A stretch of DNA of 64,000 bases from an uncultured Litoreibacter sp. (GCA_947501685.1 CANMWQ010000001.1:1-64000), one strand, 5' to 3'. Positions 27,263-30,864 are shown, counted from the first letter of the stretch. Notes: a model not told the origin generated them from the sequence alone. Numbers and translations: made by a program.

Positions 27263-28222
27263 TTATGCGCCGTAGAAGTAGCGCGTGAGGTGGAAGAAAA
27301 CCGGGGCGGCGAAGACCACGCTGTCCATCTGATCCACAAAGCCGCCCTGACCGGGGATGAGATGGCCCCAGCTTTTCACGCCGCGATCATGTTTGATGGC
27401 GGACAGAACCAATGAGCCGCCGACGCCGATCAGGTAGATGATGAGCGCAATCAGGGCGGCGGCCCAAGGCGTGAAGGGCGTGATCCAAAAGAGCAACAGA
27501 CCCAGTCCGGTGGCGGCAAGCGTGCCGTAGAACACACCTTCGCGGGTCTTGGGAGAGAGGTCAGAGGCGAGGCGCTTTTTGCCAAACCGCCGCCCGGTGT
27601 AATATTCGGCCAGATCGCCCAGCTGCACCACCAGTACCAGAAAGGCGATCAGCAGCACCGAGCGTCCCGTTGAGCCTTCAATGTCCAGCGTCACCAAGGC
27701 CGGGATATGCGACGCGCAGAAGACGCAGATCATCAGACCCCATTGGGTCTCGGACACGCGGGACAGAAAATCGCGCCCGTCACCACGGATAACCGACAGG
27801 ATCGGCAGGATCAGGAACGCATAGACCGGCACGAAGATCGAGAACAGCCCGTCAGCCCCCATCCAGACCAGCAGATATTGCACCGGGAACACTACGTAGA
27901 AGGCAGCGATCAGCGCCCAGTGATCCGCCTTTGTCTTGCGCGTCAGTGTCAGGAATTCGCGCAGCGCGGCAAAGGAGGCAAAGGCAAAGAGCAAGATCAC
28001 ACCGGAGCGTCCGACCAGCAGCGCAATGGCCAGCAGAAACACCAAACCCCACCAGGAATGCAGCCTTGTGACATAGGTCTCGACGGTGGGGTGGGAGCCG
28101 TGGCGCGCCAGACGGTAGCGCAGAATTTCGCCTGCGATGGTTGCGACAATCAGCAGCGCGCAGGCCGCACCAAACAGCACGACGATAGAGGTGCTGGTTT
28201 CGGTTGGCATGTCGGGGATCAC
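27263..28222 (-). CDS. Phosphatidate cytidylyltransferase family protein (CdsA-like)
   Basis: 319 aa multi-TM; SDLSPKTREGVFYGTLAATGLG ... IKHDRGVKSWGHLIPGQGGFVDQMDSVVFAAPVFF. Confidence 0.85.
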   Translation of the reverse strand: MIPDMPTETSTSIVVLFGAACALLIVATIAGEILRYRLARHGSHPTVETYVTRLHSWWGLVFLLAIALLVGRSGVILLFAFASFAALREFLTLTRKTKADHWALIAAFYVVFPVQYLLVWMGADGLFSIFVPVYAFLILPILSVIRGDGRDFLSRVSETQWGLMICVFCASHIPALVTLDIEGSTGRSVLLIAFLVLVVQLGDLAEYYTGRRFGKKRLASDLSPKTREGVFYGTLAATGLGLLLFWITPFTPWAAALIALIIYLIGVGGSLVLSAIKHDRGVKSWGHLIPGQGGFVDQMDSVVFAAPVFFHLTRYFYGA

Positions 28223-28872
28223 GAGGCGGCCTCCTGACCTGGGTCGCGCATCGGCATCAGCGCGGTCAGGGCGGCGGCGCTGCGGGTCAGGAAGGCGTCT
28301 TTGCTTTCGCCTTCCGTGACATGTAGCGGGCTGCCGAACACCACGGTGCAGCCGAGCGGAACCGGGATCACCTCTCCCGAGGGCATCACTGAGGCGATAT
28401 TGTCGATCCAGGTGGGGACCAGGTCAATCTCGGGCCGGGCCTTGGCGATATTGTAGAGTCCCGCCTTGAACGGCAGCAGCGGATCGTCGCTGCGGTTGCG
28501 CCCGCCCTCGGGGAAGATAATGATCGACGCCCCTTCATCAAGGGCGGCGACGATCTTGGCGATCGGGTCTTCGGTTTGATGTTCTGAGCGGCGATCAATC
28601 AAAATGGCGCGGAACACCTCGGGGCCGATAAAGGCGCGGGCCTTGGTTTTCAGCCAGTAATCCGCGGCGGCTACGGGACGTGTGACGCGGCGCAGGGCAG
28701 GGGGCAGCACGGTCCACACGATTGGCAGGTCGGCGTTTGAGGTGTGATTGGCAAAGTAGATGCGCTGTCGCGCGGTGGGCTCGATGCCGCGCCAATCGGC
28801 GCGAGGCGCGGTGATGAATTGGGCAAACAGGGCCAGAAGCTGTCCGGCGATATTGGCAAGGATGCGGCGCAT
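28219..28872 (-). CDS. Lysophospholipid acyltransferase (PlsC-like)
   Basis: Start refined to MRRILANIAG; IYFANHTSNADLP (HX4D-like), IIIFPEGGRNRSDD. Confidence 0.85.
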   Translation of the reverse strand: MRRILANIAGQLLALFAQFITAPRADWRGIEPTARQRIYFANHTSNADLPIVWTVLPPALRRVTRPVAAADYWLKTKARAFIGPEVFRAILIDRRSEHQTEDPIAKIVAALDEGASIIIFPEGGRNRSDDPLLPFKAGLYNIAKARPEIDLVPTWIDNIASVMPSGEVIPVPLGCTVVFGSPLHVTEGESKDAFLTRSAAALTALMPMRDPGQEAAS

Positions 28873-28986
28873 AAGGTCCTTTGGCGTATAGGTCCAGCCA
28901 CCGTGAAGCGAAGGCTGCGACAGTTCAAGAAAAACCGCGCCCCGGCAATGATGGGCCGGGACACGGGGGAGCAGCATTTCTATGCG

Positions 28987-29274
28987 CTAGCTGTCCTTGT
29001 CTGCGGAGACGTAATCCTCCAGCAGCTTTTCATTGCGCGCCGTCTCGATGCGCTGGATGCGGTCCGCGGCGATGCGTTCGTCAAAGCGGTATTTCACGAA
29101 GTTGATCAGGCTCACGCAGAGCATCAGGACGGCGATGGCCCAATAGCCTTTGGTTGAAAGCGGCACGTCGGGCGACATGTAGAGGCTCAACGCCAGCATA
29201 CCGAGAGAGATGAAGGCGCCCGCCAGATTAACCAGCATGATCAAGGCGTTGTCGTTGTTGGAATGTCCAAACAT
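28987..29274 (-). CDS. YiaA/YiaB-type two-helix inner membrane protein
   Basis: 95 aa; two TM helices, LSTKGYWAIAVLMLCVSLINFVKYRFDERIAADR. Confidence 0.7.
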   Translation of the reverse strand: MFGHSNNDNALIMLVNLAGAFISLGMLALSLYMSPDVPLSTKGYWAIAVLMLCVSLINFVKYRFDERIAADRIQRIETARNEKLLEDYVSADKDS

Positions 29275-29304
29275 GATGTGTCTCCAGTTGTGTAAATTGA
29301 GGGG

Positions 29305-29982
29305 TTAAGATTTGGCTTTGAGGCGTTTCAGGACATCCGCCCCGGTGCTGCGGGTCGCGTCGCCGTAACCTTGGTCAGCCATCCGGTTGCCCAACGTGTC
29401 ATGGCTAAGGTCGCGGTTGATCTCGGACAGGATTTCGGACTGCTCGAACGGGTCCTCGTGGCCCAGCACCTGGGCGATCAGCTCTTCGGCCTCCTCGACG
29501 CTGGATTGCGAGCGGATGGTGGTGTTCAATCGGCTCTGGATGTGCTGCTCGTGGCGCACGGCTTTCGCGGAGACGAGGCCTTGTTTCAGGTCAACGATCC
29601 GACGGTGGCCGGTTTCCACCGAATGACGCAGCTGGGTGATACGGGCGTCCAACCGGTCCACGGTCTGGCGGCGTCCGTCATGCTCATTTTCCAGCGCGGC
29701 GATGGCGTCGGCGGCTTGCGCGGCCATGTCGCCATTGCCGTCTTTCAGGGCCAGCTTGGCGCGCGCGGTCAAGTCACTGATACGCGATTTGACGGAGGCG
29801 GCTTGCTTTACCTCGGCGCGGTGGCGTTGGATCAGCGAGGCCAGCGTGCCTTTGGCGGCCTGCAGCGAGGCCTTGGCTTCGCGGATTTTTTGTTCGATCA
29901 GCTCAATCGCATACGTGTCTCTGACACGCTCCTCGGCACGGGCATTCGCGCCGATCATGATCGTTTTCAAAGTCCCAAACAT
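29305..29982 (-). CDS. pspA: PspA/IM30 family protein
   Basis: 225 aa coiled-coil protein; MFGTLKTIMIGANARAEERVRDTYAIELIEQKIREAKASLQAAKGTLASL; SD GGAGATGACCTATG. Confidence 0.85.
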   Translation of the reverse strand: MFGTLKTIMIGANARAEERVRDTYAIELIEQKIREAKASLQAAKGTLASLIQRHRAEVKQAASVKSRISDLTARAKLALKDGNGDMAAQAADAIAALENEHDGRRQTVDRLDARITQLRHSVETGHRRIVDLKQGLVSAKAVRHEQHIQSRLNTTIRSQSSVEEAEELIAQVLGHEDPFEQSEILSEINRDLSHDTLGNRMADQGYGDATRSTGADVLKRLKAKS

Positions 29983-30010
29983 AGGTCATCTCCTAAACAT
30001 CGCGTAAAAT

Positions 30011-30081
30011 TGAACGCTGTTCACAAAATGAAGATGAGTGATTCCTGAACGCAGTTCAAGAATAAATTTGAACGATGTTCA
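30011..30081. promoter_or_regulatory. Three palindromic operator-like sites in the pspA leader
   Basis: TGAACGCTGTTCA 30011-30023, TGAACGCAGTTCA 30046-30058, TGAACGATGTTCA 30069-30081. Confidence 0.85.
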
Positions 30082-30087
30082 AAAAAA

Positions 30088-30687
30088 TCAGGATTTCTGG
30101 CCTAAGTTACTGAGTATAAGAGAAATCATTCTTTCCAAATGCTCGGTCGGCACCGCCGAAATACGCTTTTCCAGCCCCAAAAGCACAATGCCATGGATCG
30201 AAGAGAACAGCCCGCGGGTCATCAGCATCGCATCCGCAGGGGCCATATCCGGGAAGTTGCGCATCAGCGGTTTGGCGATCAGACCCAACAGCTGCTCCAG
30301 CTCGGTCATATACCAGTCGGGCACGTCTTGGTCGGTAGACATTTCCAGATCAAACAGCGTCCGCCACGCATGGGTGTTGGTCATCGCGAAATCCAAATAC
30401 GCGTGGCCCATGGTTATCAACGTGTCCACAGGCGTCGCATCGGGGGAGGCGTTGACGGCCTCAACCACGTGACTGCCCAGCCGCTTGAACGTGCGCCCGT
30501 TCACGGCCATCACCAGCTCGTTCAGGTCGCCGAACACGTTGTAAATTGCTCCGACGGCGCAGCCGGCCTCCTTGGCCAGATCGCGGGCGCGGATTTGTTC
30601 AATGCCGCCTGTGGTGATCCGCGCCTCGCCCAGATCAATGAGCTTCCGCCGCAACTCTGCACGCTTCTTTTCAACCTTGCCTGCCAT
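30088..30687 (-). CDS. TetR family transcriptional regulator
   Basis: HTH GGIEQIRARDLAKEAGCAVGAIYNVFGDLNELVMAVNGRTF; start at MAGKVEKK preferred because a palindrome (30704-30716) lies just upstream; upstream alternatives 30717 and 30774. Confidence 0.85.
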   Translation of the reverse strand: MAGKVEKKRAELRRKLIDLGEARITTGGIEQIRARDLAKEAGCAVGAIYNVFGDLNELVMAVNGRTFKRLGSHVVEAVNASPDATPVDTLITMGHAYLDFAMTNTHAWRTLFDLEMSTDQDVPDWYMTELEQLLGLIAKPLMRNFPDMAPADAMLMTRGLFSSIHGIVLLGLEKRISAVPTEHLERMISLILSNLGQKS

Positions 30688-30703
30688 CACGTCCTCAATA
30701 TCT

Positions 30704-30716
30704 TGAACTGCGTTCA
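30704..30716. promoter_or_regulatory. Fourth palindromic site, at the tetR 5' end
   Basis: TGAACTGCGTTCA, same TGAAC-N3-GTTCA architecture as the pspA-leader sites. Confidence 0.75.
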
Positions 30717-30787: not shown

Positions 30788-30864
30788 GGTCCCTTAGCTC
30801 AACTGGATAGAGCAACTGCCTTCTAAGCAGTAGGTTGCAGGTTCGAGTCCTGCAGGGATCGCCA
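30788..30864 (+). tRNA. tRNA-Arg (anticodon TCT)
   Basis: GGTCCCT...AGGGATC acceptor stem, anticodon loop CTTCTAA, GGTTCGAGTCC T-arm, encoded CCA. Confidence 0.95.

Follow-up and report, generated by a model that had tools for sequence, protein, structure and literature searches.

The 64,000-nucleotide stretch of an uncultured Litoreibacter sp. analysed here in full (GCA_947501685.1 CANMWQ010000001.1:1-64000, hereafter the window) carries, between positions 27,263 and 30,716, genes for a TetR-family regulator, for PspA, for a small YiaAB-like membrane protein and for two phospholipid enzymes, together with four copies of the palindrome TGAACN3GTTCA. Taken as a whole, tetR, pspA and yiaAB likely constitute a local membrane-damage switch, built from the following features.

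30704 to 30716, no strand assigned: op4, an operator just upstream of the tetR start, predicted autoregulation site.
30091 to 30687, minus strand: tetR, a predicted TetR-family repressor (TetR_C_33; Pfam match 5e-10, above cut-off), preferred start ATG 30687.
30069 to 30081, no strand assigned: op3, the upstream operator, separated from op2 by 10 bp.
30054 to 30059, minus strand: TTGAAC, -35 hexamer of the pspA promoter, inside op2, placed by comparative alignment.
30046 to 30058, no strand assigned: op2, the operator containing the -35 element.
30031 to 30036, minus strand: CATCTT, -10 hexamer of the pspA promoter, 17 bp from the -35, a conserved TAT/CAT block.
30011 to 30023, no strand assigned: op1, the operator over the inferred pspA transcription start.
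29305 to 29982, minus strand: pspA, PspA/IM30 of the ESCRT-III superfamily, 225 amino acids (PF04012 6e-17, 62 bits against a cut-off of 34).
28987 to 29274, minus strand: gene for a YiaAB-like small membrane protein, the partner of pspA in all 80 named loci (Rhodobacteraceae), most of whose family members match PF05360.
28935 to 28966, minus strand: predicted intrinsic terminator closing pspA-yiaAB, a 12-bp stem with 10 GC pairs and a TTTTTCTT tail.

A preliminary description of this DNA had reported four palindromes, three before pspA with centres 35 and 23 bp apart and one at tetR, and their coordinates, perfection and spacing were all confirmed. The window contains four copies of TGAACN3GTTCA and no more, each of them perfect, and no fifth site appears there with one mismatch allowed, a setting at which the shuffle mean is 1.45. 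The organism's own genome (3.32 Mb) holds six copies, the two outside the window lying within chance, as about 1–2 further copies are expected from base composition. These two (L005, L006) were set aside as chance occurrences, their centres not being purine-N-pyrimidine (RNY) like those of the pspA operators. The even-spaced variant TGAACN4GTTCA gave a single imperfect match in the window, at chance level.

Comparison across the family shows how tightly the motif is tied to pspA. Most genomes of the genus contain a PspA orthologue, as do several other genera of Rhodobacteraceae, and in all 80 named loci the order is tetR, pspA, yiaAB, two or more operators standing ahead of pspA. In three-operator arrays the centre spacing is constant at 35/34 and 23/22 bp and the three central bases vary. 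A gene-blind search for two operators separated by a 9–11 bp spacer matched 56 of 397 family genomes, against 0 for the reversed control. Of the 30 matches examined, 29 stand ahead of a pspA-family gene and 28 adjoin tetR; in the one not followed by such a gene (L054) the array stands before an unrecognised 149-amino-acid frame adjoining tetR. The enrichment upstream of pspA orthologues that the preliminary description proposed to look for is therefore very strong.

Several variants of the arrangement were also seen. The arrays at L052 and L053 have no tetR within 1.5 kb, and pspA with two operators occurs with no tetR detected in 14 kb (L086, genome G007) or 3 kb (L053, genome G201). A second subfamily (L172–L177, L180, L171) has tetR divergent from a PspA that is 25–31% identical, with the same three-operator array. 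In two Rhodobacteraceae genomes what follows the operator array is the gene of a multi-pass membrane protein that matches no Pfam family (L178:1755-3022, L183:6109-7393).

The position of the operators relative to the pspA promoter is what points to repression. In three-operator arrays the base preceding the operator is T in 73/73 cases for op2, but in only 17/73 for op3 and 7/73 for op1, so that op2 always contains TTGAAC. In most cases a -10-like block follows, its distance being 17 bp where the operator centres are 35 bp apart and 16 bp where they are 34 bp apart, and the op2–op1 spacing therefore follows the -35/-10 spacing. Arrays of the Octadecabacter/Yoonia/Loktanella group, and certain others, have a decayed op2, yet 34/34 of them retain TTG and their op3–op1 spacing is 55–59 bp, mostly 57–58. 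Since op2 lies over the -35 and op1, which begins about 7 bp past the -10, covers the inferred start, the geometry is that of steric repression. On this comparative evidence the pspA promoter is a predicted TetR-repressible promoter of the sigma70 type, and TetR very probably represses pspA-yiaAB through the operators.

The operator at tetR behaves differently. Most of the 80 named loci retain it, between -694 and -748 relative to pspA, and its half-sites are kept perfect (L090–L169), but its centre is RNY in 17/69 copies, as by chance, against 275/287 for the pspA operators. Because the centre of op4 is unconstrained, this site is probably bound more weakly than those at pspA. The tetR start at ATG 30687 agrees with the MAGKVE consensus of the orthologues; an in-frame ATG inside op4 (MNxVQ) was set aside as chance, being in frame and open in only 5/72 operator copies. 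A tRNA-Arg(TCT) gene lies at 30788-30864, divergent from tetR and about 100 bp upstream of it.

Apart from PspA itself, the components of the classical phage-shock-protein (Psp) systems that were looked for were not found. PspC (PF04024) has no match in the organism's own genome, which is 99% complete, no protein there exceeds the curated cut-off for PspF (TIGR02974; best 187 bits against 444), and no sigma54-type (-24/-12) site with up to two mismatches lies between 29982 and 30100. These results agree with the earlier proposal that a TetR-type regulator, through operators conserved at pspA and tetR, takes the place of PspF/sigma54 or Lia control. The earlier gene calls stand, the matches to CTP_transf_1, Acyltransferase, PspA_IM30 and TetR_C_33 all lying above the Pfam cut-offs. 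The YiaAB label falls below it in the window protein (PF05360, a two-helix domain, 21.2 bits against 26.6) and is carried by its relatives, 16/18 family members matching PF05360, some over the cut-off and the best at 1e-17. A search of the PDB with the PspA profile gave no match.

The window TetR has a clear orthologue of solved structure, 3cjd of Jannaschia sp. CCS1 (2.5e-60), which came from structural genomics and was deposited as a putative regulator; our literature search found no publication mentioning it. The AlphaFold model of the window protein (predicted local distance difference test score 92) matches 3cjd with a template modelling score of 0.85 and 53% identity (Foldseek), in agreement with a TetR fold made of an N-terminal helix-turn-helix and an all-helical ligand domain. 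The next fold matches are KstR, FasR and EthR2 and include lipid or acyl-CoA binders, a complex with C20-CoA existing for FasR.

Beyond the family, a TetR profile search of 385 alphaproteobacterial genomes detected relatives in 35. Of the 29 loci from this class-wide search, 21 have the operator within 250 bp of tetR, and the loci together (102,627 bp) contain 44 operator sites, whereas the reversed motif occurs there once and six permuted palindromes do not occur at all. Operator-bearing relatives have the recognition-helix pattern GxhYN in common, and unrelated TetRs (L278–L280) have neither pattern nor operator. Some class-level tandem matches (L240/L268, L245/L267, L262, L265) have neither TetR nor lipid genes nearby and look like chance repeats.

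Phospholipid genes recur beside these distant relatives. An LplT-Aas fusion adjoins TetR or operators at eight loci (L220, L222, L227, L228, L229, L236, L238, L273) and is found on Rhizobium plasmids as well (L170, which has an array of three operators of its own, and L171); TGAACN3GTTCA directly precedes lplT-aas at L170 and L222. CDP-alcohol transferase/plsC/cdsA clusters lie near TetR relatives at L228, L260 and L266, and operators stand in front of CDP-alcohol transferase-(YnbC)-PlsC-CdsA clusters at L266 and L260. At L266 the YnbA-, YnbC- and YnbB-like genes (47, 55 and 40% against E. coli) are preceded by TetR operators, and the genome of L260 also carries a tetR-operators-pspA-yiaAB locus, L234. 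FA_hydroxylase is found beside TetR relatives at L234 and L270, and DUF2339 (the Arc3A family) once, at L231, with no operator. The link to lipid metabolism drawn in the preliminary description is not supported in its original form, through a pspA-plsC-cdsA operon, but reappears elsewhere, where the same operator precedes CDP-alcohol transferase-plsC-cdsA (L260, L266) and lplT-aas (L170, L222). As a separate observation, operators at L229:5124-10418 and L263:5809-8482 precede genes for DUF2157 and GDYXXLXY membrane proteins, with LplT-Aas next in L229.

The mechanism we propose builds on the operators, the array geometry, the promoter overlap, the gene order, the terminator and the recurrent lipid-gene neighbours, all of which are read from the sequence. 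From these we infer TetR as the binding protein, repression, the ligand and a repair function. A TetR dimer would bind TGAAC-RNY-GTTCA; in the resting state, TetR on op1, op2 and op3 would shut the sigma70-type pspA promoter, and occupancy of op4, probably at lower affinity, would provide negative autoregulation of tetR. TetR would be released by a ligand, most likely a lipid arising from phospholipid damage (a lysophospholipid, free fatty acid or acyl-CoA), and PspA, with its ESCRT-III-type membrane remodelling, would then be made together with its membrane partner YiaAB, transcription ending at the terminator behind yiaAB. Many genera have a lipid-repair pair, plsC and a ynbB-type cdsA, directly behind, probably as its own unit, and elsewhere in the Alphaproteobacteria lysophospholipid-recycling or phospholipid-remodelling genes are flanked by related TetRs that share the operator. 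That the ligand is a lipid-damage signal is suggested by the recurrent phospholipid-gene neighbours of related TetRs, and we hold the case for and against it to be evenly balanced.

The alternative that survives best concerns this ligand: TetR could sense a xenobiotic such as a solvent, an antibiotic or a bile-like detergent, in the manner of efflux repressors, with PspA as general membrane protection. Many TetR-family regulators sense drugs, and PspA is generally known to respond to membrane agents in other bacteria. However, the recurrent neighbourhood clusters of the 80 named loci contain no efflux pump, and in distant genomes it is phospholipid enzymes that recur as neighbours, which leaves xenobiotic sensing rather doubtful.

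A second alternative, the one favoured in the preliminary description, is a single TetR-controlled operon pspA-yiaAB-plsC-cdsA that would co-produce PspA with phosphatidate and CDP-diacylglycerol. It brings in the remaining two genes:

28219 to 28872, minus strand: plsC-like lysophospholipid/1-acylglycerol-3-phosphate acyltransferase (PF01553 2.7e-16; HX4D and FPEGGR motifs).
27263 to 28222, minus strand: YnbB-type CDP-diglyceride synthase of the CdsA family (PF01148 3e-47).

The start of plsC is more likely ATG 28872 (MRRIL), and the overlap of plsC and cdsA described earlier is real, at 4 bp. The genes share a strand with short gaps, plsC-cdsA stands directly behind yiaAB in 52 of 81 loci (the 80 named ones and the window), and read-through of the terminator is possible. 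Yet a hairpin follows yiaAB whether plsC is there (51/52) or not (28/29); it is T-tailed in 33/52 and 13/29 loci respectively, far above random windows (6/405), and the pspA-yiaAB gap has no T-tailed hairpin in the loci compared. The stem sequence differs between genera while the structure is kept, and plsC-cdsA is absent in about a third of the loci; of the synteny that the preliminary description proposed to check, tetR-pspA-yiaAB is kept in 80/80 loci and the lipid pair in about two thirds. Before plsC the window has no perfect operator. Given the conserved terminator, plsC-cdsA is probably a separate transcription unit and the TetR-controlled unit probably pspA-yiaAB; co-expression of all four genes, as claimed earlier, is not borne out, and we consider the single operon quite improbable. 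In Yoonia-type loci a conserved block, CTTCGCCAAAGT, stands immediately before the plsC ATG and is possibly plsC's own promoter. At L091:7000-8970, an insertion of about 2 kb between the yiaAB terminator and plsC appears to encode at its start a protein with repeat-in-toxin-like GGxGxD repeats.

The two remaining alternatives concern TetR itself. Some TetR-family proteins activate, FasR among them, but activation of pspA is very unlikely here given that op2 over the -35 and op1 over the start occur in practically every array. Binding of the palindromes by a regulator encoded elsewhere, with tetR adjacent by accident, would suit the tetR-less arrays L052 and L053 and is hardly credible when Rhodobacteraceae have the operator also at tetR itself, when distant tetR relatives with quite different neighbour genes have it beside them, and when GxhYN goes with the operator.

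Against our preferred reading, a TetR-controlled switch answering membrane damage, several observations must be counted. The TetR_N match of the window protein is 20.1 bits, just below the Pfam cut-off of 24. The solved lipid-binding TetRs nearest after 3cjd are only 16–22% identical, and fold similarity therefore says little about the ligand. Several distant TetRs have no recognisable lipid gene nearby (L223–L226, L233, L239), and some relatives have no operator (L231, L236, L273). Finally, as plsC-cdsA lies behind a terminator and has no operator, the lipid genes of the window may themselves escape TetR control.

The locus shares with the Psp responses of E. coli (pspF-pspABCDE), Bacillus (lia) and Mycobacterium (clgR-pspA) a PspA/IM30 effector, a small membrane partner and a dedicated neighbouring regulator. 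It differs in its TetR-type repressor, its predicted sigma70-type promoter and its YiaAB-type partner, without PspF, PspB/C or a Lia two-component system. The main text of two Psp surveys (PMC9239133, PMC11237479) mentions neither TetR nor YiaA, and our literature searches (the motif, 3CJD, TetR with LplT/Aas, DUF2339 with TetR, Psp in roseobacters) found no description of a tetR-pspA-yiaAB system.

A second comparison is with antagonism defence in P. aeruginosa, in which protection against attack by the type VI secretion system, phospholipase effectors among its weapons, is given by arc1 (PA2541-36, genes of phospholipid type), by Arc3A (DUF2339) and by Aas; Arc3A keeps lysophospholipids from accumulating (PMC8926400, PMC12663445). 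Like kinds of genes (LplT-Aas, CDP-alcohol transferase-YnbC-PlsC-CdsA, DUF2339) lie beside the related alphaproteobacterial TetRs, where control would be through TetR and TGAACN3GTTCA, in contrast to the post-transcriptional Gac/Rsm control of arc genes in Pseudomonas. The full arc1/ynb set (CDP-alcohol phosphatidyltransferase, YnbC-type hydrolase/methyltransferase, PlsC and CdsA) is complete in L266, whereas the window has only plsC and cdsA, and PspA-YiaAB is not reported in arc clusters. The window PlsC is 50% identical to that of an operator-bearing ynb/arc1-like operon. Its CdsA, a second copy in the genome (the canonical CdsA, at C3:44307, is 34% identical over 114 amino acids), is 56% identical to the CdsA of L266 and 37% over 300 amino acids to YnbB of the E. 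coli ynbABCD operon; relative to the latter, the window locus lacks ynbA and ynbC homologues and has plsC in addition. An LplT-Aas fusion, which joins LplT, PlsC and acyl-ACP synthetase, is missing from the organism's own genome, where the matches are limited to AMP-binding enzymes and a weak one to the major facilitator superfamily; DUF2339 is missing as well.

Our data suggest that the Psp response is regulated here in a new way, one possibly linked to phospholipid-damage defence. PspA is a widespread bacterial ESCRT-III-type protein about whose control little has been described beyond the sigma54, Lia and ClgR systems; in many marine Rhodobacteraceae a one-component repressor appears to control it, at a promoter mapped by comparison. 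The TetR subfamily is directly testable, its operator being known and the structure of an orthologue (3cjd) solved. Ting et al. noted that arc genes are widespread and Gac/Rsm is restricted to gammaproteobacteria, and called for other antagonism-responsive signalling systems (PMC8926400). We propose tentatively, as a plausible idea rather than the likelier case, that through the TGAACN3GTTCA TetR subfamily Alphaproteobacteria sense phospholipid damage, such as that done by the phospholipase toxins of rivals, and that this subfamily controls PspA-YiaAB, LplT-Aas, arc1/ynb-type and Arc3-type genes in various combinations. If so, it would be a counterpart of gammaproteobacterial Gac/Rsm danger sensing and would place PspA in antagonism defence.

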